Origin: Modestobacter sp. VKM Ac-2984
Lineage (GTDB): Bacteria > Actinomycetota > Actinomycetes > Mycobacteriales > Geodermatophilaceae
Assembly (NCBI RefSeq): GCF_026967985.1
Contig: NZ_JAPVBJ010000006.1
Span: forward strand, 243,170-307,169
Reading direction: 5' to 3'
DNA: 64,000 nt
The notes below the pieces were generated by a model that saw only the letters and a program-made list of their open reading frames with translations, did no database searches and was not told where the DNA came from. This document shows, piece after piece, positions 1,050-53,200 of the stretch. Position numbers and translations under genes: made by a program. Each line of letters begins with the position of its first letter. Positions within the stretch are counted from its first letter, which is position 1.

Positions 1050-1898
1050 TCAGGCGGAGGTGCCCTGCGCGGGCAGCGCCACCACGGCCCCGGGCGCGGT
1101 GAGGGCCACCGTGGTGGCCGAGCCGGCGGCGGCGACCGCGGCCGCGAAGTCGCGGGGTGGTTCGACGAGCAGCGCCCGCATCCGGGCCCGCCAGGGGCTG
1201 GGCAGCGAGGTCAGCCCGGCGACGGCGAAGGTGCCCCAGTGCACCGGGACGGCGACCCGCGGGCGGAGCAGCGCCACGGCCCGGGCCGCACCCGCCGGGT
1301 CCAGGTGGCCGGGGCCGAGCGAGGGGCCCCAGCCCCAGACCGGCAGCAGGGCGACGTCCACGCCGTCCTCGCCGAGGTCGGCCATCCCGGGGAAGAGGTC
1401 GGTGTCGCCGGCGGCGTAGACGGTGACGCCGTCCCCGGAGACCAGGTGCCCGACTGCCGGGGCGTGCGGGCCGTGGGTGAGGTGCGGACCCCAGCGGTGG
1501 GCGGCGTGGTCGGCCGTGGTGGCGGTGACGGTGAGGCCGCCGTCGGTGAGGCTCGCGCCGACGCCGAGCTCCTCCACGGCGGTGAAGCCGTGCCGGGTGA
1601 GCCACCGGCCGGCGCCGCGGGGCACCACGATCGGCGTGCTGCGGCCCAACCGGCGCAGGGAGGGCAGGTGCAGGTGGTCGTTGTGCAGGTGCGAGACGAC
1701 CACGAGGTCGATGCCGGCCCAGGCCTCCGACGCCAGCCGGGGGACCACCCGCCGCAGCGGGCCCAGCCGGTGGGTGAGCAGCGGGTCGGTGAGCACCGTG
1801 CGGCCCGCCAGCTCGATCCGGACGGTCGAGTGGCCCAGGAAGCGCAGGGACGGCGCGGTCACCGGGTGAGTGTCGCGCCGACCACCCGCCCGGGGCAT
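1050..1898 (-). CDS. Metallo-beta-lactamase-fold hydrolase, UlaG-like
   Basis: Predicted cytoplasmic metal-dependent hydrolase of about 282 residues. It shows the family pattern: the strand LRFLGHSTVRIELAG, the HxHxDH-type metal site as SHLHNDHLH, then DHAAH, a GDTD motif in VYAAGDTDLFPG, and the late histidine in VPVHWGTF. This spacing fits the UlaG/L-ascorbate-6-phosphate lactonase-like branch rather than beta-lactamases or RNases; the substrate cannot be read from the sequence. The ATG at 1896-1898 overlaps the stop of the upstream c-di-GMP gene as TGATG and has a GAGGTG ribosome-binding site, so coupled translation is likely. An internal GTG at 1860-1862 directly before the conserved fold is a shorter alternative. 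It is the last gene of the operon read from about 7.2 kb. Confidence 0.85.
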   Translation of the reverse strand: MPRAGGRRDTHPVTAPSLRFLGHSTVRIELAGRTVLTDPLLTHRLGPLRRVVPRLASEAWAGIDLVVVSHLHNDHLHLPSLRRLGRSTPIVVPRGAGRWLTRHGFTAVEELGVGASLTDGGLTVTATTADHAAHRWGPHLTHGPHAPAVGHLVSGDGVTVYAAGDTDLFPGMADLGEDGVDVALLPVWGWGPSLGPGHLDPAGAARAVALLRPRVAVPVHWGTFAVAGLTSLPSPWRARMRALLVEPPRDFAAAVAAAGSATTVALTAPGAVVALPAQGTSA

Positions 1899-4528
1899 CA
1901 CACCTCGGCGCGTGGTCTCGGCAGGGGCACGGGTGCGGGCAGGGGTGCGACCACCGCCGGACCGGGGCGGCCCAGCAGGTCGGCCACCTCGGCGGCGGTC
2001 AGGCAGGTCGGCAGCACCGGGCCGGAGACGGCGACCACGCCCTGCACGCGCAGCTCGTGGAGGAGCTCCCGGGAGGTGATCTCCTTGGCCACGGTGGAGA
2101 CCTCGAAGTCGCGGGCGCTGCGGCCGATCGCGCCCAGCACCTCCAGCATCCGGTCGTGGTTGCCGCCGGCCGACAGGTTGCGGACGTCGACCATCACCAC
2201 CTCCAGCGGCAGCCGGGCGAGCTGCGACCACAGGGTGGAGCCCATGCCGTAGTCGTCCAGCCCGAGCCGGACGCCGGTCCGGTGCACGGCGTGCAGCGCC
2301 GGGATGAGCGCCGCCGACGAGGTCTGCAGCACCTCCTCGGTGACGAAGAGGGTGAGCCGGGGAGGTGCCAGGTCGGCTGCGGCCAGCGCCACGGCCACCT
2401 CGCCGGGCAGCTCGTCGGCGTGCACCAGCCCCGCGGGCAGGTCGACGGCGACGAGCAGCTCGTCGCCGAGGGCGGCCACGTCGGCGCAGGCGCGGGTGAT
2501 CAGCCACTGCTGCAGGGCGGCGGTGCAGCCCTGCCGCTCGGCGGCGGCCCACAGCTCTGCGGCGGGCAGCGTGCCGAGCTCGGGGTGCACCCAGACCGGC
2601 TGGGCGTGCAGCGCGGCGAGGATGCCGGTGTCGCCGTTGGCGATGGTGTCGAAGCGGAGCTGCACCTCCCCGTCGGCCAGGGCGGTCGCGACCGAGCTGC
2701 TGGCCGCGGCCTGCGCCACCCGGTCCTCGGTGTGCAGCCGCCAGCAGCCCTTGCCGGCCTTCTTGGCGGCGCCGAGGGCGGCGTCGGCCTGGCGGAAGGC
2801 GAGCTGGCCGCCTCCGGGGTGCACCCGGCAGAGGCCCACGCTGGCGCCGATGGTGAAGGTCCGGTTGCCGATCCGGCAGGGGCGGGCGAGCACGTCGACG
2901 ACCCGATGGGCGGCCTCGACGGCAGCCTCCTCGTCCCCGGCCAGCAGCACGGCGAACTCGTCGCCGCCCAGGCGGGCGACCAGGTCGTCGGTGCGCAGCA
3001 GGCCCTGCAGCCGCCGGGCCACCTCGACGAGCAGCAGGTCGCCGGCCTCGTGCCCGGCGGAGTCGTTGACCGCCTTGAACCCGTCGAGGTCGAGCACCAG
3101 CAGCGAGCGCTCGCCGGAGGTCGCCGACCCGGCGGCCATCTCCTGGAAGAGCAGCGCGCGGTTCGGCAGCCGGGTGAGGTGGTCGGTGAAGGCCATCCGC
3201 TCCAGCTCGCGCTCGCGGCGTCGCCGGGTGGTCACGTCCCGCAGGTGGAGCACCCGCCGGCCGCTGCCGGGGCGCTCGTGGTGGCTGACCTCCAGCTCCC
3301 GTCCCTCGCCCTCGGGGCCCTGCAGTCGCAGGTGGACCACGGGGGCGGCCCCGTCGGCCGCGACGGTCAGCTCGCGGCGGACGCGGGGGCGGTCCTCCTC
3401 GTGCAGCAGGTCCAGCAGCGGCAGGTGCGGGTCGGCCGCGGCGGCGATCCCGAGCAGCGTCCGGGCCGCGGGGGAGGTGAACTCGAGCCGGAGGTCGGCG
3501 TCGACGATCGCCACGCCGTCCGAGCTGGCCTCGACCAGGCCACGGAAGTCCTCCTCGCTGCGGAGCAGGTCCTCCTCGATGCGGTCGCTGTCCCGGATCC
3601 GCATGAACAGCCGCACCAGCAGCAGGAGGACCACCACGGCGGTGCAGGCGAGCGCGCCGTCGGGGACGCGCAGGTCCAGCAGCAGGGCCGCCACCAGGGT
3701 GACCGGCACCCCGACCAGCGCCAGGACGTCGACGACCACGCCCGCGGAGTTCACGATCGGGGCGGCGTCGGCCGGGGAGAGCTCGGCCGGGACGGCGCTG
3801 GCCAGCTGGACGGCGTGCACGCCGGTCACCAGCGCGCTGGCGATCACCACGTCGGCGGCGGTGGACCACAGGCCGGTCGGCTGCGCGATGTGTGCCGCCA
3901 GCAACGCGGAGGCGAGCCCCAGCAGGGCGGTCATCAGGATGATCGCGGTCGCCGGACGCCGGACGGCTGCGGTCGAGACCGTGCACAGCGCTCCGACGAC
4001 GCCGACCGCCGCCGCCGGGTAGACGGCGTAGGCGAGCACGAGGGGCTGCAGGTCCGGCCGGATCGCTCCCGGCGCCATCGCGGGGGCCAGCACCAGGACG
4101 TCGACGACGACGACGAGGGCGAAGGCCACCATCACCCCGTCGACCACCAGGACCGGCCAGCGGGTGCCGCGGACCCGCCCGCCGATCAGCGCGGCGCTCA
4201 CCGTCGGACCCAGCGCGGCGACGAGGACCACCACGATGCCGACGCTGATGCGGCCCTGCGTGCCGCCGATGCCCAGCCCGGTCACGAGGCCGGCGCAGGC
4301 GAAGAGCAGGGAGCTGAGTCCCAGCAGCTGCCAGGGCAGCCGGTCCGGGCGGGCCATCCGCCGGGTCAGCCGGCTGCAGCGCCAGGCGGCCCAGGCCCCG
4401 ACCGCGGTCAGCACCAGGTTGTCCCACTGGGGCAGTGCCCCGGGCGGGCTGACCGGCACGGTGACGCCCAGCGCGACCAGCGCGCCGAGCAGCACCAGCG
4501 CCAGGTGCGGACGCCGGGCTGCGGTCAC
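1898..4528 (-). CDS. Membrane PAS-GGDEF diguanylate cyclase with degenerate EAL domain
   Basis: Protein of 876 residues. The N-terminal third is a hydrophobic sensor region with about 8-10 predicted membrane helices. A PAS domain follows (EEDFRGLVEASSDGVAIVDADL), then a GGDEF domain with an intact signature (RLGGDEFAVLL) and substrate-binding context (DLDGFKAVNDSAGHEAGD). The C-terminal EAL-like domain keeps TEE and a DDYGMG variant of DDFGTG, but the EAL signature itself, the metal-binding Asn and the catalytic Lys are absent, so phosphodiesterase activity is unlikely. Expected activity: synthesis of c-di-GMP from two GTP. The GTG start at 4526-4528 overlaps the stop of the upstream EAL protein (GTGA), indicating translational coupling. 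That neighbour has the reciprocal defect. Confidence 0.9.
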   Translation of the reverse strand: MTAARRPHLALVLLGALVALGVTVPVSPPGALPQWDNLVLTAVGAWAAWRCSRLTRRMARPDRLPWQLLGLSSLLFACAGLVTGLGIGGTQGRISVGIVVVLVAALGPTVSAALIGGRVRGTRWPVLVVDGVMVAFALVVVVDVLVLAPAMAPGAIRPDLQPLVLAYAVYPAAAVGVVGALCTVSTAAVRRPATAIILMTALLGLASALLAAHIAQPTGLWSTAADVVIASALVTGVHAVQLASAVPAELSPADAAPIVNSAGVVVDVLALVGVPVTLVAALLLDLRVPDGALACTAVVVLLLLVRLFMRIRDSDRIEEDLLRSEEDFRGLVEASSDGVAIVDADLRLEFTSPAARTLLGIAAAADPHLPLLDLLHEEDRPRVRRELTVAADGAAPVVHLRLQGPEGEGRELEVSHHERPGSGRRVLHLRDVTTRRRRERELERMAFTDHLTRLPNRALLFQEMAAGSATSGERSLLVLDLDGFKAVNDSAGHEAGDLLLVEVARRLQGLLRTDDLVARLGGDEFAVLLAGDEEAAVEAAHRVVDVLARPCRIGNRTFTIGASVGLCRVHPGGGQLAFRQADAALGAAKKAGKGCWRLHTEDRVAQAAASSSVATALADGEVQLRFDTIANGDTGILAALHAQPVWVHPELGTLPAAELWAAAERQGCTAALQQWLITRACADVAALGDELLVAVDLPAGLVHADELPGEVAVALAAADLAPPRLTLFVTEEVLQTSSAALIPALHAVHRTGVRLGLDDYGMGSTLWSQLARLPLEVVMVDVRNLSAGGNHDRMLEVLGAIGRSARDFEVSTVAKEITSRELLHELRVQGVVAVSGPVLPTCLTAAEVADLLGRPGPAVVAPLPAPVPLPRPRAEV

Positions 4529-7239
4529 GTCGCCGGCCCGCCGTCCCCGGCCCGGAGCAGGCCGGGCACGCCCGCCGCCGAGGTGGGCACGGGCACCCCG
4601 CCGAGGCCGGGGAGCTGGGTGGTCAGCGCAGACCGGTCCAGCGGGCGGGCCAGCAGGTAACCCTGGATGAACCGGTGGCCCATGTCGCGGAGCAGGTGCA
4701 GCTCGGTCGCCGTCTCGACGCCCTCCACCACCACGACCAGGCCCAGGCTGGTGCCCAGGTGCAGCACGGAGCTGCACAGCGCCCGGCGCTGCGGGTCGGT
4801 CTCGACGTCGGCGAGGAACTGCCGGTCCATCTTCAGGACGTCGATCGGCAGGCCGACGAGGTAGGCCAGCGAGGACCAGCCGGTGCCGAAGTCGTCGACG
4901 GCGATCCGGACGCCCAGCCGCCGCAGGGCCGCCAGGTCGTCGGTCACGTGCTCGTCGTCCAGCAGCACCGACTCGGTGATCTCCAGGACCAGTCGGCAGG
5001 CGGGCAGCCCGCTGGACTCCAGGGCGCACAGCACGTCGGCGACCAGCTCGCCGCTGCGCACGTGCCGCGCCGAGACGTTGACCGCCACCCCGAGGTCCGG
5101 GTGGGGGAGCGCGGCGACCGTGGCGGTGGCCTCGGCCAGCACCCACCGGCCCAGTTCGGTGATCAGCGCAGACTCCTCGGCCAGTGGCACGAACTCCGCC
5201 GGGGACACCTCGCCGTAGGTGGGGTGCCGCCAGCGCAGCAGCGCCTCGACGGAGACGGTGCGGTGCAGGGCCAGGTCGACGACCGGCTGGTACACCAGCC
5301 GCAGCTGGTCCTCGGCGAGGGCCCGGTGCAGGTCGGTGCGCAGCGTCTCCTCGCGCTGCTGGGTGATCCGCAGCGCGTCGGAGTGCCGGCGGACCCGGCC
5401 GGGGCCGGCGGCGCGGGCGCTGCGCAGCGCCAGGTCGCCCCAGCGCAGCGCCTCCCCGGCATCCGCGTCGGCGTCCAGGGACGTGACGCCGGCGGCGGCG
5501 GTCAGCCGCAGCGTGCCGCTGGCGGTGGCCACTGGCTCGACAGCGGCGACCAGCCGGCCGGCGATGACCTCGGCGTCGGCCACCGTGCCGGACACCAGCA
5601 CGGCGAACTCGCTGGCCCCGGAGCGGGCCAGCCAGTCGTCGCCGCGCAGCGCCCGGGCGAACCGGGTGGTCAGCTCACGCAGCACCGGGACGTCGTCGCC
5701 GGCGGGCAGCCCGTCGACGCCCAGCACGACCAGGGAGGCGCTGCTGGCCGAGTTGCTGCTGGCCGAGGTGCTGCCACCCGAGGGGGTGCGGAAGGCGGCG
5801 GCGAGCCGCTGGGTGAGCGCCGAGCGGTTGGGCAGGCCGGTCGTCGGGTCACTGGTGCTGAACGCGGGCAGGGGGTCGGCCGGCTGCGGGGCGCTCGCGC
5901 TGACGTCCCGGCAGTAGAGGACGAGTGCGCCCACGTCGGGGTCGCCGCGCAGGTCGCGGACCTGGGACTGGATCAGCAGCCAGCGGCCGTCGAGGTGTCG
6001 CACCCGCGCCGTCCGGGTCTTGGTCTCCGAGGGGTCGACCGAGGTGGCGCTCAGGGCGGCGATCAGGCCCGGGGCGTCGTCGGGGTGGACGGCGGCGGCG
6101 ATCGAGCGACCGACGATGCGCTGCGGGTCCAGGCCGAGCAGCGTGGTGATGGCCGGGGAGACCCACTGCACCCGCAGCTGGTCGTCGAGGATCAGCACCG
6201 GGTCGGCGCTGCCGCGCACCAGCGTGCGGAAGTAGGCCTCGCTGCGCTGCAGGTCGCTGGTGAGCCGCTGCTGGGTGCGCCAGGACACCGCCTGGTGGGC
6301 CAGCAGGGCGCCCAGCCCGAGTGCGCCGAGCGTCGTCCCGAAGATGGTCAGGGTGCCGGTGACCGGGACGCTGATCAGCAGCAACGAGCCGCCGGCCAGC
6401 GCGGTGGCGTGCGGGAGCAGCGCGCCGAGGGTGGAGCCGGCCGCGTTCCCGCGGTCGGCGGTGGGCCGCGGCCGGTCGGCGCGGCAGGCCACCAGGAGCA
6501 GGGCCAGCCCGAGGACGCTCAGGGCGCAGGCCAGGTACTGGACCGGGCCCGGCCCGGAAGCGATCGAGGAGCAGGCGCCGGCCATCGCGGTGGCGACCTG
6601 CGAGGCGAAGAGCAGCCAGCCGACGGGGCGCTGCGCGGCCGGGCAGATCGCGATGAACACCAGGGAGAAGCCGGTGCCGACGGCGACGCTGGACAGCAGG
6701 GCGAACAGCGCGACCGTCTCGGACAGGGAGAGGAGCCCCTCTCTGCCGATGGTCAGGTGGTACAGCGTGTGCACGGTCAGCAGGTCGGCGAGCACGAAGA
6801 GCGTGAGCATCGTGGCGACCTGGGCCCGCGCGGCCCGCAGCGAGGCGCGGTCGAGCATCCGCAGGATCGCGACGACCATCAGCAGCTGACCAGGGGCGCT
6901 GCCCAGTGCGCTCTGGCCCCACGGCAGCACGGCCGTGGCGGCCAGGGCGCCGACGGCCCCGAGGGCCACCGAGGTCGCGCACCAGCGCCAGCCGGCCGGG
7001 TGGGCGCTCCGTCGTCCGTCGCGGACGAGCAGGGCGACCACACCGACGACGGCCAGGAAGTTCACCGTCACCGCGACGGCGACCGAGGTCGGGGCGGGCA
7101 GCAGGCCGACGGACAGGGTCGCGAGGGCGGCGAGGACGGCGAGGAGCAGTGGCCGGGTCAGCGTGCGGACGGCGACCGGGCCGCCCCGCGTCGGAGCGGC
7201 CATGGCCCGCGTCGGTGCGGTGAGGGCTCCGGAGGTCAC
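4525..7239 (-). CDS. Membrane PAS-EAL c-di-GMP phosphodiesterase with degenerate GGDEF
   Basis: Protein of about 904 residues with an N-terminal multi-helix membrane sensor region (roughly residues 25-310). Next is a PAS domain (AYFRTLVRGSADPVLILDDQL), a GGDEF-like domain in which the signature reads GASEF (RSGASEFAVLV), and a complete EAL domain. The EAL domain has SVEALLRWRHP, the metal ligands NVSARH, EITESVL and DDFGTGWSSLAYL, the lysine in VLKMDRQF, EGVET, and the loop GYLLARPL. Expected activity: hydrolysis of c-di-GMP to pGpG, with the GGDEF-like part at most a regulatory GTP or c-di-GMP binder. The start is uncertain: GTG at 7237-7239 gives the longest frame and ATG at 7201-7203 is an alternative; neither has a strong ribosome-binding site. 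First gene of the operon. Confidence 0.9.
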   Translation of the reverse strand: MTSGALTAPTRAMAAPTRGGPVAVRTLTRPLLLAVLAALATLSVGLLPAPTSVAVAVTVNFLAVVGVVALLVRDGRRSAHPAGWRWCATSVALGAVGALAATAVLPWGQSALGSAPGQLLMVVAILRMLDRASLRAARAQVATMLTLFVLADLLTVHTLYHLTIGREGLLSLSETVALFALLSSVAVGTGFSLVFIAICPAAQRPVGWLLFASQVATAMAGACSSIASGPGPVQYLACALSVLGLALLLVACRADRPRPTADRGNAAGSTLGALLPHATALAGGSLLLISVPVTGTLTIFGTTLGALGLGALLAHQAVSWRTQQRLTSDLQRSEAYFRTLVRGSADPVLILDDQLRVQWVSPAITTLLGLDPQRIVGRSIAAAVHPDDAPGLIAALSATSVDPSETKTRTARVRHLDGRWLLIQSQVRDLRGDPDVGALVLYCRDVSASAPQPADPLPAFSTSDPTTGLPNRSALTQRLAAAFRTPSGGSTSASSNSASSASLVVLGVDGLPAGDDVPVLRELTTRFARALRGDDWLARSGASEFAVLVSGTVADAEVIAGRLVAAVEPVATASGTLRLTAAAGVTSLDADADAGEALRWGDLALRSARAAGPGRVRRHSDALRITQQREETLRTDLHRALAEDQLRLVYQPVVDLALHRTVSVEALLRWRHPTYGEVSPAEFVPLAEESALITELGRWVLAEATATVAALPHPDLGVAVNVSARHVRSGELVADVLCALESSGLPACRLVLEITESVLLDDEHVTDDLAALRRLGVRIAVDDFGTGWSSLAYLVGLPIDVLKMDRQFLADVETDPQRRALCSSVLHLGTSLGLVVVVEGVETATELHLLRDMGHRFIQGYLLARPLDRSALTTQLPGLGGVPVPTSAAGVPGLLRAGDGGPAT

Positions 7240-7450: not shown

Positions 7451-7746
7451 CGCGTCGGCGCCGGCGGGAGCCCCGCCGGGCTGCTGGGCGCGGCCCGCGT
7501 GGACGGCCGGGTCGCCGGCGCAGGGGCAGCCGAGGTCGGCTGATGGGCAACGGGCGTGGTCGGTTTCGATGGGGCGCCTCCTGGTGTCCCCGATCACGCT
7601 ACTCAGCTGCACCAGTCCCCTGCCCCCGCGCGCCACGTCGTCCCGTCCGGGGGTGCGGGCCGGGGAGCCGCCGTGGTGCCGGCCGGGCGCGACCCGCCGG
7701 AGGGCTGAGCGCGCGGCGGGCGGATTCGGGTGGCAAGCTCGACGGG

Positions 7747-10700
7747 GTGAAGACGTGGCTGGATGCATGGCCGGTGTTCCGGCAGCTGACGGGTCCTGAC
7801 CCGCTGGGGCGCGGCAAGGCCGCCCGCAGCAAGGCGACCGAGCAGGTGGTGAGCCGCACGGCCACCGCCGACCGGGTGGTGCAGTCGGTCTGCCCGTACT
7901 GCGCGGTGGGCTGCGGGCAGCGGGTGTTCGTCAAGGACGAGCAGGTCGTGCAGATCGAGGGCGACCCCGACTCGCCGATCAGCCGCGGCCGGCTCTGCCC
8001 CAAGGGCAGCGCGAGCAAGCAGCTGGTGACCAGCCCGAGCCGGGTCACCACGGTCAAGTACCGCCGTCCGCACGGGACGGAGTGGGAGGACCTGGACCTC
8101 GACACGGCGATGGACATGATCGCCGACCGCGTCCTGGACGCCCGCCGCAAGGGCTGGCAGGACGAGGTGGACGGCCACGCCGTCAACCGCACGCTGGGGA
8201 TAGCGAGCCTCGGAGGGGCGACCCTCGACAACGAGGAGAACTACCTCATGAAGAAGCTTTACAGCGCCATGGGCGCGATCCAGATCGAGAACCAGGCCCG
8301 CATATAGCACTCCGCGACGGTCCCCGGTCTGGGGACCTCGTTCGGTCGTGGCGGCGCCACGAACTTCCAGCAGGACCTGGTGAACTCCGATTGCATCGTG
8401 ATCGAGGGTTCGAACATGGCCGAGTGCCACCCGGTCGGCTTCCAGTGGGTCATGGAGGCCAAGGCGCGGGGCGCGAAGGTCATCCACATCGACCCGCGGT
8501 TCACCCGCACCAGCGCGCTGGCCGACCTGCACGTCCCGCTGCGTGCCGGCACCGACATCGCGTTCCTCGGTGGGCTGATCAAGTACGTCCTGGACAACGA
8601 CCTGGACTTCCGCGAGTACGTCGTCGCCTACACCAACGCGGCGGCGATCCTGCGTGAGGACTTCCAGGACACCGAGGACCTCGACGGCCTGTTCTCCGGC
8701 TTCGACCCCGAGACCGGGCAGTACGACGAGACGACCTGGCAGTACGAGGGCGTGAACGTGCCCTCCTCGGCCGGCCAGCGCTCGCCGAGCCAGCCGGGCG
8801 GGTCGGCCTTCCGTCAGGACGAGGACGACCGGCCCGACGACGCCGCGGACGACGGCACCGACGACGAGACCGAGGGCGTCAAGGAGTCCGACCAGCAGCA
8901 GGGTGCCCAGGGCTCGGCCGACATCCACGGCAAGCCGAAGCGGGACGAGACGCTGCAGCACCCGCGCTGCGTCTTCCAGGTGCTCAAGCGGCACTACGCC
9001 CGCTACACCCCGGAGATGGTCGCCGACATCTGCGGCATCGAACCCGAGGTGTTCCTCAAGGTCGCTGAGTGGGTGACCGCCAACAGCAACCGCGAGCGGA
9101 CGACGGCGTGGGTGTACTCGGTGGGCTGGACGCACCACACGGTGGGCGTGCAGTACATCCGGACGGCGTCGGTCCTGCAGGCGCTGCTGGGCAACATGGG
9201 CCGCCCGGGTGGCGGGATCCTGGCGCTGCGCGGGCACGCGAGCATCCAGGGCTCCACCGACATCCCGACGCTGTTCAACATCCTGCCCGGCTACATCCCG
9301 ATGCCCCACGCCCAGCAGCACACCGACCTGGACAGCTTCTGCGCCTCCAGCGACGACCGGGTGGGCTTCTGGGGCAACATGCGCTCCTACTCGGTGAGCC
9401 TGCTGAAGTCCTGGTGGGGCGACGCGGCGCAGCCGGAGAACGACTTCGCGTTCGACTACCTGCCCCGGCTGACCGGTGACCACGGCACCTACACCACGGT
9501 CGCCGACATGATCCAGGGCAACGTGCCCGGCTACTTCCTGGTCGGGGAGAACCCGGCGGTGGGCAGCGCCAACGGTCGGATGCAGCGCTTCGGCCTGGCC
9601 AACCTCGAGTGGCTGGTCGTCCGCGACCTCCAGATGATCGAGTCGGCGACGTTCTGGAAGACGGCCCCGGAGATCGAGACCGGTGAGCTGGTCACCGAGG
9701 ACATCGCCACCGAGGTCTTCTTCATGCCTGCGGCCACGCACGTGGAGAAGGAGGGCACCTTCACCCAGACGCAGCGGCTGCTGCAGTGGCGGCACAAGGC
9801 GGTCGAGCCGCCGGCCGACTGCCGCAGCGACCTGTGGTTCTACTTCCACCTGGGCCGCAAGCTGCGGGACAAGCTGGCCGGGTCCACCGACCCGCGGGAC
9901 CGCCCGCTGCTGGACCTCACCTGGGACTACCCGACGCACGGGGAGACCGAGGAGCCCAGTGCGGACGCCGTGCTCCGGGAGATCAACGGCTACGACGCCG
10001 ACGGCGAGATGCTCTCGACCTACCTGGACATGAAGGACGACGGGTCGACCAGCGGTGGCTGCTGGATCTACACCGGCGTCTACGCCGACGGCGTCAACCA
10101 GGCCGCCCGGCGGAAGCCCGGCCGGGAGCAGGACTGGGTGGCCGCCGAGTGGGGCTGGGCGTGGCCGTCGAACCGGCGCACGCTGTACAACCGCGCCTCG
10201 GCCGACCCGGACGGCAAGCCGTGGAGCGAGCGCAAGGCCTACGTGTGGTGGGACGAGACAGCAGGGGAAGACGGAGCCGGCCGTTGGGTCGGTCACGACG
10301 TCCCCGACTTCGAGGCCACCAAGCGCCCGGACTACGTGCCGCCGGAGGGCGCGACCGCACAGGCCGGCCTGGGCGGTGCCGACCCCTTCGTCATGCAGGC
10401 CGACGGCAAGGCCTGGCTGTACGTGCCGGCGGGGCTGGCCGACGGCCCGATGCCGGCGCACTACGAGCCGGCCGAGTCGCCGGTGGAGAACGCGCTGTAC
10501 GGCCAGCAGGCCAACCCGGGCCGGGAGGAGATCCAGGCTGCGTACAACCGGGGCAACCCGCCGCGCAGCACGGTCTACCCCTACGCGATGACGACCTACC
10601 GGCTGACCGAGCACCACACGGCCGGTGGGATGAGCCGCACGCTGCCCTACCTGTCGGAGCTGCAGCCGGAGTTCTTCGTGGAGGTCAGCCCGCAGCTGGC

Positions 10701-11085
10701 GCAGGAACGCAACCTGGAGCACGGCGGCTGGGCGACGTTGATCAGCGCCCGGACGGCGATCGAGGCCCGGGTCCTGGTCACCGAGCGGATCCGGCCGATG
10801 AAGCTCAAGGGCGGCCAGCTCGTCGAGCAGATCGGCATCCCGTACCACTGGGGTGAGCAGGGGCTGTCCACCGGCGACTCCGGCAACGACCTGTTCGGTG
10901 TCGTGATGGACCCCAACGTGCACATCCAGGAGACGAAGGTCGCCACCTGCGACATCCAGCCCGGGCGGCGTCCGCGCGGCAAGGCGCTGGTGCAGTACGT
11001 GGAGGACTACCGGATCCGGGCGGGTGTGCAGTCGGGCCTGGTCCCCAGCGGCGGCCGGGCACCGATCGAGGAGGGGACGAGCTGA
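7747..11085 (+). CDS. fdhA: Formate dehydrogenase alpha subunit, selenoprotein with UAG-encoded Sec187
   Basis: Molybdopterin catalytic subunit oxidising formate to CO2. Length is 1112 residues if the in-frame UAG at 8305-8307 is read as selenocysteine. Alignment by eye to E. coli FdnG is continuous across the codon: NQARI-U-HSATVPGLG matches the NQAR(V/I)-U-H active site, and homology runs unbroken before and after it. The N-terminal [4Fe-4S] ligands are Cys49, Cys52, Cys56 and Cys84. Later blocks include VIHIDPRFTRTSALAD, LGNMGRPGGGI and NRRTLYNRASAD. The start is GTG 7747; unlike FdnG there is no twin-arginine signal. Residues about 337-400 form an acidic low-complexity insert (DEDDRPDDAADDGTDDETEG). 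Coupled to fdhB through a mini-ORF. Reading it as a nonsense-disrupted pseudogene is far less likely. Confidence 0.96.
8305..8307 (+). other. In-frame UAG at the selenocysteine position of fdhA
   Basis: The codon is TAG, not TGA, at the exact position occupied by selenocysteine (TGA) or cysteine in FdnG/FdhF-type formate dehydrogenases. Frame, similarity and GC-rich codon use continue on both sides. UAG-directed selenocysteine, with a matching tRNA-Sec anticodon, has been reported experimentally for Geodermatophilus and Blastococcus (Mukai and colleagues, 2016). The tRNA-Sec, selA, selB and selD genes are not in this window. Confidence 0.93.
8308..8345 (+). promoter_or_regulatory. Bacterial SECIS-like hairpin downstream of the UAG
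   Basis: Directly after the UAG a 7-bp perfect helix (GGTCCCC at 8319-8325 with GGGGACC at 8331-8337) closes a five-base loop GGTCT at 8326-8330. The same GGUCU apical loop is the SelB-binding feature of the E. coli fdhF SECIS. Below the helix, C8318 is unpaired, in the place of the bulged U of E. coli. CGA 8315-8317 can pair with TCG 8338-8340, and CC 8312-8313 with GG 8344-8345. The loop begins 18 nt after the recoded codon. The element lies inside the coding sequence, as in other bacterial SECIS elements. Confidence 0.88.
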
Positions 11086-11120
11086 TGGAGCGCGACCCGA
11101 TGGAAGAGGAGCGCTCGTGA
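11085..11120 (+). CDS. Possible 11-codon coupling ORF between fdhA and fdhB
   Basis: The ATG overlaps the fdhA stop (TGATG, 11083-11087) and the TGA at 11118-11120 overlaps the fdhB GTG (GTGA, 11117-11120). The frame encodes MERDPMEEERS. The GAAGAGGAG inside it also serves as the fdhB ribosome-binding site. It is most simply a coupling device that keeps ribosomes moving to fdhB; whether the peptide is functional is unknown. Confidence 0.3.
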   Translation: MERDPMEEERS

Positions 11121-12253
11121 CGACCGTCAGCTCGGCGAGCCCGGCGCTCACCGGCAACGACCCGGCCAACCGGCTCTACGGCCCCCTGCCCGACGTGAGT
11201 GGGGAGGCCGGTTACGCCGAGGACCACCCCGCGCGGGTGGGCTTCTTCACCGACACCTCGGTCTGCATCGGCTGCAAGGCCTGTGAGGTCGCCTGCAAGG
11301 AGTGGAACACGCTCCCGATGGACGACGCGGACGGCAACCGCGACGTCATGGCGATGACCGGGATGTCCTACGACAACACCGGGATGCTCGGGGCCAACTC
11401 CTGGCGGCACGTGGCGTTCGTCGAGCAGAGCCGGGCCGTCGACCTGCCGATGCCCGGGATCGGGCTGCCCGGGGCGGGTGCCGAGGGCGCCGGCGCACCC
11501 GCGGCGGGCTGCGGGAGCGGCGGAGGCGGCTGTGGGAGTGGTGGAGCCCCGGGCGACGCGCACGCCACGTCGCACGGCGGCAACGCCGACGGCGGGCTGA
11601 CCGCCCAGTCCAGCGTGCTCAACGCGGAGGCGCTCAGTGAGTTCGACCCGCAGACCGGCCAGTCGGCCGACCGGGAGATCCGCTGGCTGATGTCCTCCGA
11701 CGTCTGCAAGCACTGCACGCACGCCGGCTGCCTGGACGTCTGCCCGACCGGGGCGCTGTTCCGCACCGAGTTCGGCACCGTGGTCGTGCAGGGCGACATC
11801 TGCAACGGCTGCGGCTACTGCGTGCCGGCCTGCCCCTACGGCGTCATCGACCAGCGCAAGGACGACGGCCGGGTCTTCAAGTGCACGATGTGCTACGACC
11901 GGCTCACCGACGGGCTGCAGCCGGCCTGCGCCACGGCGTGCCCGACCCAGTCGATCCAGTTCGGCGACCTCGACGAGCTCCAGGCCCGGGCCGACGCCCG
12001 GCTGGCCACGCTCAAGGAGCAGGGCGTCGAGACCGCCCGGCTGTACGGGCGCGACGAGGACGACGGCGTCGGCGGCGCGGGGGCCTTCTTCCTGCTGCTC
12101 GACGAGCCCGAGGTCTACGGCCTCCCGCCGGACCCGATCGTCACCACCCGGGACCTGCCGTCGATGTGGAAGCACGCCATCGGCGGGGCTGCCATGGTGG
12201 TCGGTTTCGCGCTCTCGGCCGTGCTGAGTTCACGCAGGGGGCTCGGGCGATGA
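11117..12253 (+). CDS. fdhB: Formate dehydrogenase beta subunit, four [4Fe-4S] clusters
   Basis: Electron-transfer subunit of 378 residues, related to FdnH/FdoH. It carries electrons from the catalytic subunit towards the membrane subunit. Cysteine groups are CIGCKACEVACKEWN near residue 53, CKHCTHAGCLDVCPTG, CNGCGYCVPACPYG and CTMCYDRLTDGLQPACATACP, the normal set for four cubane clusters. A C-terminal hydrophobic segment (HAIGGAAMVVGFALSAVLSS) anchors it to the membrane, as in FdnH. Odd feature: between the first and second cluster motifs is a Gly/Ala/Ser-rich insert with extra cysteines (CGSGGGGCGSGG), about 35-45 residues long. GTG start at 11117 with GAAGAGGAG just upstream. The 3' end overlaps a second mini-ORF. 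Confidence 0.95.
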   Translation: MTTVSSASPALTGNDPANRLYGPLPDVSGEAGYAEDHPARVGFFTDTSVCIGCKACEVACKEWNTLPMDDADGNRDVMAMTGMSYDNTGMLGANSWRHVAFVEQSRAVDLPMPGIGLPGAGAEGAGAPAAGCGSGGGGCGSGGAPGDAHATSHGGNADGGLTAQSSVLNAEALSEFDPQTGQSADREIRWLMSSDVCKHCTHAGCLDVCPTGALFRTEFGTVVVQGDICNGCGYCVPACPYGVIDQRKDDGRVFKCTMCYDRLTDGLQPACATACPTQSIQFGDLDELQARADARLATLKEQGVETARLYGRDEDDGVGGAGAFFLLLDEPEVYGLPPDPIVTTRDLPSMWKHAIGGAAMVVGFALSAVLSSRRGLGR

Positions 12254-12303
12254 CCCTCCCCGAAGCACCAAGATGGCCATTTTGGTGGGAGGAGCAGCTG
12301 TGA
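12250..12303 (+). CDS. Possible 17-residue coupled ORF between fdhB and nrfD-like gene
   Basis: ATG at 12250-12252 overlaps the fdhB stop (ATGA) and its TGA at 12301-12303 overlaps the GTG start of the membrane subunit at 12300 (GTGA). The peptide MTLPEAPRWPFWWEEQL is unusually rich in Trp and Pro for noise, and an AGGGGG stretch precedes it. The same arrangement is found at the fdhA-fdhB junction. It could be a small accessory peptide or purely a translational bridge. Confidence 0.4.
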   Translation: MTLPEAPRWPFWWEEQL

Positions 12304-13400
12304 CCGAGGGACTGGCGACGCCGGGCGCCGGCTGGCGGCGGGCCGACGGCCCGCCGGCACAGCTGCGGGAGAAGAAGCGGCGCAAGGGCGGCCGTCGCGG
12401 CGGTGGCCGCGACGGTGACCCGACCGTCGACGAGGCCGAGTTCACCTCCTACTACGGCCGGCCGATCATCAAGCCGCCGGTGTGGAAGACCCCGGACGTG
12501 CCGCTCTACCTGTTCCTGGGTGGCGCCGCGGGCTCGTCGGCGGTGCTCGGTGCGATCGCCGACGTGACCGGTCGCCCGGCGCTGACCCGGGCGGCGCACT
12601 ACACGGCCGGCGGTGGGGCGCTGGCCTCGGTCGTCTGGCTGATCCACGACCTGGGGCGGCCGGCGCGGTTCCTGCACATGCTGCGGGTGATCAAGCCGAC
12701 GTCGCCGCTGTCGGTGGGGTCCTACATCCTGGCGCCGTTCAGCGCCCTGACCGCGGTCACCGCCGGCATCCAGCTGCTGGAGGCCTTCCCCGGCCTGCAG
12801 AAGTTCGGGCTGCGGCGGATCGCCGGCTGGTTCCCCGGGCTGCGGAAGGTCGTCGGCACCACCTCCGCCGTCTTCGGTGGCCCGATGACCACGTACACGG
12901 CGGTGCTGCTGGCCAACACCGCGGTGCCGTCGTGGCACGAGCCGTACAAGGAACTGCCGTTCGTCTTCGCCGGCTCCGGGATGGCCGCCGGCGGCGGCAT
13001 CTGCATGGCGTTCACCCCGGTCGCCGAGGCGGGGCCGGCCCGGAAGATGGCGGTCGCCGGTGCGGCGGTCGAGCTGGCCGCGATGCACAAGGTCGAGCAC
13101 GATCACGGCATCGTCGGTGAGCCGTACCAGCTGGGCAAGGCCGGGAAGATGATGAAGGCCGCGAAGGCCTGCACCGCCACCGGCGCCGGGCTCACCGTGG
13201 TGGCCGGCCGTACCCGGGTCGGTGCCGCCGTCTCCGGCGCACTGCTGGCGGCCGGGTCGCTGCTGACCCGGTTCGGCGTCTTCGAGGCGGGCATGGCCAG
13301 CGCCCGCGACCCGAAGTACACGGTCGTGCCGCAGCGGGCCCGGATGGCCGCCCGCGAGGAGCAGAAGCGCCAGGACGAGGCCAGCACCATCACCCGCTGA
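12300..13400 (+). CDS. NrfD/PsrC-type membrane subunit of formate dehydrogenase
   Basis: Polytopic membrane protein of 366 residues, related to the NrfD/PsrC family of quinone-interacting subunits. After a basic cytoplasmic N-terminus (KKRRKGGRRGGGR) come several predicted helices, including VPLYLFLGGAAGSSAVLGAIAD, a family-like WLIHDLGRPARFLHMLRV segment, PMTTYTAVLLANTAVPSWHE and a later AGSGMAAGGGICMAFTPVAEAG. It takes the place of the cytochrome b556 subunit FdnI and presumably passes electrons to menaquinone. The GTG at 12300 is chosen because GGGAGGAG lies about 6 nt upstream. The C-terminus is charged. Last gene of the operon, followed by a strong hairpin. Confidence 0.9.
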   Translation: MTEGLATPGAGWRRADGPPAQLREKKRRKGGRRGGGRDGDPTVDEAEFTSYYGRPIIKPPVWKTPDVPLYLFLGGAAGSSAVLGAIADVTGRPALTRAAHYTAGGGALASVVWLIHDLGRPARFLHMLRVIKPTSPLSVGSYILAPFSALTAVTAGIQLLEAFPGLQKFGLRRIAGWFPGLRKVVGTTSAVFGGPMTTYTAVLLANTAVPSWHEPYKELPFVFAGSGMAAGGGICMAFTPVAEAGPARKMAVAGAAVELAAMHKVEHDHGIVGEPYQLGKAGKMMKAAKACTATGAGLTVVAGRTRVGAAVSGALLAAGSLLTRFGVFEAGMASARDPKYTVVPQRARMAAREEQKRQDEASTITR

Positions 13401-52119: not shown

Positions 52120-53200
52120 AGCGCCCCTGGCCAGCCCGATGCCGCCGCCGGTCTTGCTGCAGCAGACGTCATGGCAGCTGGAGCGCGAAGTGGGAACTCC
52201 GCCGAGCTAACGCAATCCTGAAGAGCGCGCCGGCTCCCTTCGCGGTGGGGCTCGCCTGCCCACAGCGGTGATCGTCGAGTTCATCGACGCCCACCCGGAC
52301 GAGCGCGGGGTCAAGCCGGTCTGCGCTGAGCTGTAGATCGCCCCGAGCACCTACTGCGCTCATCACAGCCGGCCGCCCTCGGCGCGGTCGGTCACCGACG
52401 CGGCCACGGCCGCGGTGATTGAGCAGATGCACGGGGAGAACTTCGGCGTCTACGGCGCGCGGAAGGTCCACGCACAGCTGCGCCGCCAAGGCCACCCGGT
52501 GGCCCGCTGCACGGTGGAGCGACTGATGCGCGCCGCCGGGCTGCGGGGTCTGAGTCGGGCGAAGGGGCCACGGACCACGATCCAGGGATTGAGTCCTGAC
52601 CTGCGCCCGGACCTGGTCGGACGCGCGTTCACCGCGACCTGCCCAAACCACCTGTGGGTCGCCGAAATCACCTACTGCCGGACGTTGACCGGCTGGGCCT
52701 ACGCCGCCTTCGTCACCGACGTTTACTCCCGCCGGGTGATCGGCTGGCAGCTGCCGAAGTCACTGCGCACCGATCTCACCCTGGACGCCGTGGAAATGGG
52801 GATCTGGACCCGCCGGCGGGCCGGACCTCGGCGGGATGATCCACCACTCGGACAAGGGCGTCCAGGACGTCGCCGTGCGCCACAGCCCACGGCTCGCCAG
52901 AGCTGGCGCAGTCGCCTCGGTCGGGTCCACCGGGAACTCGTATGACAACGCCCTGGCCGAGGCGTTCAACTCGCTGTTCAAGGCCGAGCTGATCGTCAGT
53001 AAGGGCCCGTGGAAGGGCATCGAGGACCTCGATATTGCCACCGCCGAGCACATCGACTGGTTCAACCACCGACGCCTGCCCGGCGAGAACGCCCCGATCC
53101 CACCGGCCGAGCGTGAGGACAGCTGCTACCCGCACAACACCGCGACGACTACCGTCACCGCGTCCGTTCCGAGCCTCCACTGACCTCCGGGGCGGGGCAG
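52120..53200 (+). mobile_element. Decayed IS3-family insertion sequence
   Basis: Contains remains of both orfA and orfB of an IS3-type element. The orfA end is recognisable (LRRANAILKSA) but frameshifted: a base appears to be missing between the codons for EREVG and LRRAN near 52190-52200. orfB has a stop and a frameshift. Limits are approximate because the terminal repeats could not be paired with certainty. Confidence 0.8.
52268..53183 (+). pseudogene. IS3-family OrfB transposase, broken by UAG and a frameshift
   Basis: The frame opens at GTG 52268 (VIVEFIDAHPDERGVKPVCAEL) and meets TAG at 52334-52336, where CAG (Gln) would be expected in the homologous context CAEL-Q-IAPSTY. It then continues with MHGENFGVYGARKVHAQLRRQGHP and the catalytic domain (FTATCPNHLWVAEITYCRTLTGWAYAAFVTDVYSRRVIGW). 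A frameshift near 52810-52840 leads into IHHSDKGVQDVAVRHSP, GSTGNSYDNALAEAFNSLFKAELI and the end TTVTASVPSLH. The D-D-E residues are still encoded, but no full-length product is possible. Confidence 0.9.

Follow-up and report, generated by a model that had tools for sequence, protein, structure and literature searches.

The stretch of DNA analysed here (the window, 64,000 nucleotides) belongs to a genome of 4.56 Mb, labelled G000, and carries a formate dehydrogenase operon composed of fdhA and the genes of an fdhB-like and an NrfD-like subunit (Table 1). The encoded FdhA shares 99% identity, in its best-aligned segment, with the FdhA of Modestobacter sp. VKM Ac-2982. Its frame comprises 1112 residues and is interrupted by one internal stop only, a TAG at codon 187; when read through this codon, the protein scores 1953.4 bits against the NCBIfam formate dehydrogenase profile NF041513, over residues 4-1089 (cut-off 1400). 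The iron-sulfur subunit scores 182 bits against TIGR01582, the best formate dehydrogenase beta model, which is below the cut-off of 334.7, and the NrfD-like subunit probably serves as the operon's membrane anchor. Two adjacent large PAS-GGDEF-EAL proteins are encoded upstream of the operon (1898-7239, minus strand). The window also contains, at 52232-52345 (plus strand), a match to the Rfam ALIL pseudoknot (RF01497, 51.8 bits), presumably a frameshift element of insertion sequences.

Table 1. Location of the features discussed, in window positions for the fdh operon and in locus positions for genome G059
Feature	Location	Strand	Remarks
fdhA, formate dehydrogenase alpha subunit, predicted selenoprotein	7747-11085	+	GTG start, TGA terminator; NF041513; named relatives align from residue 1
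ATA codon preceding the fdhA TAG	8302-8304	+	ATA in 51/51 TAG rows (one genome twice, imported copies included)
In-frame TAG, predicted selenocysteine codon, residue 187	8305-8307	+	Conserved stop at the same codon in relatives
SECIS-like hairpin, 7-bp stem, GGUCU loop	8319-8337	+	11 bases after the TAG; in silico fold and pairing across relatives
fdhB-like iron-sulfur subunit	11117-12253	+	Longest ORF from 11024; GTG start at 11117 picked by eye
NrfD-like membrane subunit	12273-13400	+	PF03916, 43.3 bits
UCA tRNA-Sec of G059	L139:1173-1263, contig C17	-	81.8 bits, top score of the family tRNA-Sec survey
AhpD-like ORF of G059, 192 residues	L139:1579-2157, contig C17	+	In-frame TGA at 1870-1872, CFYU motif
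UCA-only genomes G067, G069, G070, G071, G073, G074, G075	L105-L110, L113		

The first-pass annotation had placed a lone in-frame TAG at the conserved NQAR(V/I)-Sec-H position of fdhA, and this is what the frame holds, the site reading NQARI-Sec-H. It had also counted 926 codons beyond the stop; the homologous frame does continue, over 925 residues, the figure of 926 including the terminator. Its expectation that standard pipelines would split the gene in two is borne out by a plain list of open reading frames, in which fdhA is divided into 7543-8307 and 8380-11085.

Conservation of the stop codon and its surroundings

The Sec codon of fdhA is a stop in all 80 named relatives compared, always in the form NQAR(I/V)-stop-H, with TAG in 33 and TGA in 47 of them. 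Since the same codon is a stop in every one of these loci, the TAG of the window is neither a chance event nor a local error. The 33 TAG loci are recorded under genus names of Geodermatophilaceae, except for one named 'Frankiales', which groups with them in the FdhA tree, and the 47 named loci from outside the family all have TGA. The codon that precedes the stop also differs between the two groups, being ATA in every TAG row against 3 of the 47 TGA rows, 34 of which have ATT. ATA is otherwise rare in the fdhA of the window (2 out of 39 isoleucine codons). Its presence before TAG is not a general rule, given that the UGSC genes read have an Asp codon at that place. Among 43 genes predicted by codon composition, a rough rule of our own applied to the window together with the DNA immediately preceding it and the sel locus, three end at TAG, one of these ends being the Sec codon of fdhA; TAG hence terminates 2 of the 42 others and likely still functions as a stop.

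A SECIS-like hairpin follows the codon. As a single sequence, its 19 bases fold better than shuffled ones by a modest margin (z = -1.6; 14 of 200 shuffles fold as well). The fourth pair of the stem joins bases 18 and 30, numbered from the start of the TAG; both are third-codon (wobble) positions, and the pair is therefore largely free of protein constraint. This pair is standard in all 37 distinct TAG sequences (50 rows), where it occurs as C-G, G-C, G-U and U-A, compared with a mean of 18.3 in shuffles, none of which reaches 37 (0/5000). In the TGA sequences it is likewise kept (35 out of 35 distinct sequences), with a weaker contrast to the shuffles (mean 29.0; 2/5000). The six inner pairs are kept in all rows and the outermost one in 46 of 50 TAG rows and 20 of 47 TGA rows, and the GGUCU loop is found in 37 of the 47 TGA relatives.

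Selenocysteine machinery and the reading of UAG

The genome to which the window belongs encodes a tRNA-Sec that matches RF01852 over its full length with 64.2 bits and whose anticodon is CUA, as the first-pass annotation had expected. The selA, selB and selD genes, which it had named as a further check, are present as well: the tRNA-Sec adjoins selA and selB, being located upstream of them on the same strand, and selD is found approximately 8 kb from this locus. The best match of each of the three genes is above the family cut-off, and those of selA and selD are open. Of the 10 tRNA matches obtained in this genome (E up to 1), the 8 that were read, leaving out the two weakest (23.0 and 18.9 bits), include no UCA tRNA-Sec and consist of one CUA tRNA-Sec and ordinary tRNAs. 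A second match above the tRNA-Sec cut-off proved to be a tRNA-Ser, so it does not represent a second tRNA-Sec. Three selenoprotein families were searched for in the genome, and FdhA alone was found, with no match for UGSC (E up to 0.001) or for the AhpD-like family (E up to 1e-6).

The combination of a UAG at the active site, a CUA tRNA-Sec and the sel genes leads to the prediction that the codon specifies selenocysteine, and we consider it nearly certain, judging from sequence, that the UAG of this Modestobacter-like fdhA is read as such by the genome's own CUA tRNA-Sec. According to the established bacterial pathway, SerRS would charge this tRNA with serine, SelA would convert the Ser-charged tRNA to Sec-tRNA with selenophosphate supplied by SelD, and SelB would bring the product to the ribosome when a hairpin follows the codon. 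At the UAG of fdhA, delivery by SelB would compete with release factor 1, and UAG elsewhere would still terminate translation. The components of this scheme that are observed are the codon, the CUA tRNA, selA, selB and selD, the hairpin with its covariation, and the match between tRNA and codon throughout the family.

Other readings of the codon were weighed against this one. The one that survives best, itself very improbable, is that conversion to Sec does not take place on the CUA tRNA and UAG is suppressed with serine or cysteine, against which stand the open selA and selD matches above their family cut-offs and the preserved SECIS pairing. Even less credible is that fdhA is dead and its TAG a product of nonsense mutation or faulty sequencing: broken copies do exist, such as the second copy of G080, which is devoid of the stretch containing the Sec site, but every one of the 33 named loci of the family has the same TAG, as do all 118 survey matches spanning the site. 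Insertion of pyrrolysine via a tRNA-Pyl, a label that ARAGORN gives to the tRNA on the basis of its anticodon, can be given just as little weight, since the tRNA fits the tRNA-Sec model over its full length and adjoins selA and selB, and UGA occupies the site in every one of the 47 named relatives from outside the family.

UAG and UGA as predicted selenocysteine codons across Geodermatophilaceae

UAG-encoded selenocysteine, the reading preferred here for the window, is the rule across Geodermatophilaceae; it was earlier described from a few genomes, and the family-wide map is new. The survey included 112 genomes of the family, with tRNA-Sec matches accepted at E up to 1e-9. It yielded 110 matches in 108 genomes, all of which were read: 102 have the anticodon CUA (in 101 genomes, about nine in ten of those sampled) and 8 have UCA (in 8 genomes), and the anticodon arm is identical across the 101 CUA tRNA-Sec compared. 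FdhA was detected in 100 of the 112 genomes, with no more than six candidates per genome scored. Residue 187 is spanned by 118 of the 137 matches, from 98 genomes, and all 118 have TAG, the position having been checked base by base in a subset of these loci only and the Sec codons of G080 and G034 falling outside the tally. For UGSC, 95 matches were obtained in 54 genomes; 72 of them contain one in-frame stop, which is TAG in every case and never TGA, and in the six stops that were read the TAG lies at the U of UGSC.

In G080, a broken second copy of fdhA (L329, contig C4) lacks the stretch around the Sec site and ends early. The TAG of a match in this genome (residues 202-973) was rejected as a Sec codon, being the end of a broken copy without the Sec site, and an extra TGA in one FdhA match of G009 was set aside, being the terminator of that match itself.

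In a tree of 92 FdhA rows, eight divergent TAG copies (L279-L286) branch at four points amid the TGA genes of other families, and the distribution of TAG and TGA on the tree needs five changes. A single clade of all TAG rows is rejected (p-AU 1.5e-6) in this tree, a quick one built without a mixture model, in which two long branches were flagged near one divergent TAG group. The rejection indicates that TAG also arose in imported fdhA copies. These genes have likely been rewritten to TAG: besides the main TGA-to-TAG change, four more likely took place, by mutation or by short-tract conversion from a resident copy. Gene conversion of short tracts could account for the TAG of the imported copies, as hinted by the ATA that also precedes the codon in them. 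Around the codon, the DNA of L279 resembles a resident TAG gene slightly more than it does any TGA gene (0.949 vs 0.923), and that of L280 is likewise slightly nearer to a resident gene. In L281, L282, L284, L285 and L286 this DNA is closer to a TGA gene, and in L283 it is equally close to resident and TGA genes.

Seven genomes belonging to three genera (g6, g7 and g8), all fragmented assemblies, have only a UCA tRNA-Sec (Table 1), and no FdhA match was detected in them (E up to 1e-30). A SelA+SelB tree with 42 rows was built, in which the four CUA genomes that it contains have two g6 genomes as sisters (support 100/99). The positions of g7 and g8 are not firm, and a topology with all UCA genera as one clade with the CUA group has a p-AU of 0.34. 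The tRNA-Sec of G069, assigned to g6, resembles that of g8, perhaps because of a binning error, and this genome was left out of the tree. Given that g6, with UCA, is sister to the CUA clade, the change from UCA to CUA is placed on the branch above g6. The change from UGA to UAG likely happened once inside Geodermatophilaceae, after g6 had split off.

A genome with two tRNA-Sec genes and the relation to known systems

One genome of the family, G059, which matches Geodermatophilus sp. LHW52908, has both a CUA and a UCA tRNA-Sec. The CUA tRNA-Sec shares a contig with the genome's one selB match (E up to 1e-60), and the FdhA and UGSC matches hold TAG. The UCA tRNA-Sec lies approximately 315 bases from an AhpD-like ORF that scores 112.6 bits against TIGR01926 (cut-off 81.8) and has its TGA at the second cysteine. 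This gene is the sole match in Geodermatophilaceae to the AhpD-like protein that has an in-frame stop, and in all 29 other loci of the family that were read, the position of its TGA is taken by the second Cys of CxxC. At the same position, 30 AhpD-like loci of the wider phylum have TGA in 15 cases and Cys in 10, with 5 not aligned; one of the 15 TGA loci likewise lies about 1 kb from a UCA tRNA-Sec. The hairpin after the TGA of G059 is no better than those of shuffled sequences (z = -0.5, 59/200).

The first 15 kb of contig C17, where both genes are located, have a lower G+C content and are rich in insertion sequences, with transposase genes, and a 3-kb segment further along the contig (49-52 kb) is common to all 26 genomes of the genus, G059 included. 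When a chimeric assembly was weighed as the origin of the second tRNA, the low-G+C, transposase-bearing left end together with this genus-wide segment pointed to an island carried by a host contig; a mis-join near the left end may still have occurred. No repeat bounding the tRNA and the AhpD-like gene was found, a scan of viral contigs gave no relative of the latter, and the 327 plasmid records matching it are all below 60% identity.

On the basis of these genes, selenocysteine is predicted to be specified in G059 by UAG as well as by UGA, with one SelB. It is fairly probable that imported genes written in the old code have been met in two ways: fdhA was changed to TAG, at least four times, and in G059 an island would have brought its own UCA tRNA-Sec and a UGA selenoprotein, one SelB serving UAG and UGA, which amounts to a portable Sec code. 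The titles and abstract openings of the literature matches listed contain no description of a genome in which Sec is specified by UAG and UGA alike. In Aeromonas salmonicida, Sec is encoded by a Cys codon, and a second tRNA-Sec may be present too. For Geodermatophilus and Blastococcus, 75Se labelling was reportedly used by Mukai and colleagues in 2016.

The first-pass annotation had credited UAG-directed selenocysteine in these two genera to Mukai et al. 2016, an attribution that fits PMC5330540, where that paper (doi 10.1002/anie.201511657) is cited. There, a CUA tRNA-Sec is described, after Mukai 2016, from three Geodermatophilaceae genomes, with FDH, UGSC and AhpC selenoproteins, together with the UAG-Sec AhpC of Blastococcus saxobsidens DD2 (Santesmasses et al. 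2017, PMC5330540). Selenocysteine encoded by UAG, UAA and sense codons in some species is mentioned in PMC10778597. Since UAG-encoded selenocysteine has been published in relatives, the gene of the window is a further case of a known phenomenon. It shares with the Geodermatophilus and Blastococcus cases, as described in PMC5330540, the family, the CUA tRNA-Sec and TAG in FDH, also found there in UGSC, but it comes from a Modestobacter relative in which FdhA is the sole match of the three families searched. With the AhpC of B. saxobsidens DD2, as described in the same paper, it has in common a TAG-Sec gene under a CUA tRNA-Sec, although the protein is another one. The UGA-Sec FdhA of other Actinomycetota, such as Actinomycetospora and Amycolatopsis, belongs to the same enzyme family and has the same Sec position and hairpin, whereas the window has TAG instead of TGA, and ATA instead of the predominant ATT before it. 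The AhpD-like gene of G059, with its CFYU motif and TGA at the second cysteine, resembles the members of TIGR01926, tabulated as a CxxU selenoprotein family in PMC13188914, but differs from them in that the same genome has TAG-bearing FdhA and UGSC genes and a second tRNA-Sec, with UCA, lies alongside.

What the present analysis contributes is the family-wide tally, the UCA-bearing sister genus, the two-tRNA genome and the finding of TAG in imported fdhA copies. In annotation, a plain list of open reading frames cuts fdhA and similar genes at the TAG. The existence of a sister genus with a UCA tRNA-Sec makes it possible to place the switch on one branch. Because a named strain is on record for the genome that G059 matches, dual decoding of selenocysteine may be directly testable. 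A changed codon meaning should hinder horizontal gene transfer, and the TAG in imported genes and the genome with two tRNA-Sec genes provide natural tests of how this transfer barrier is crossed.
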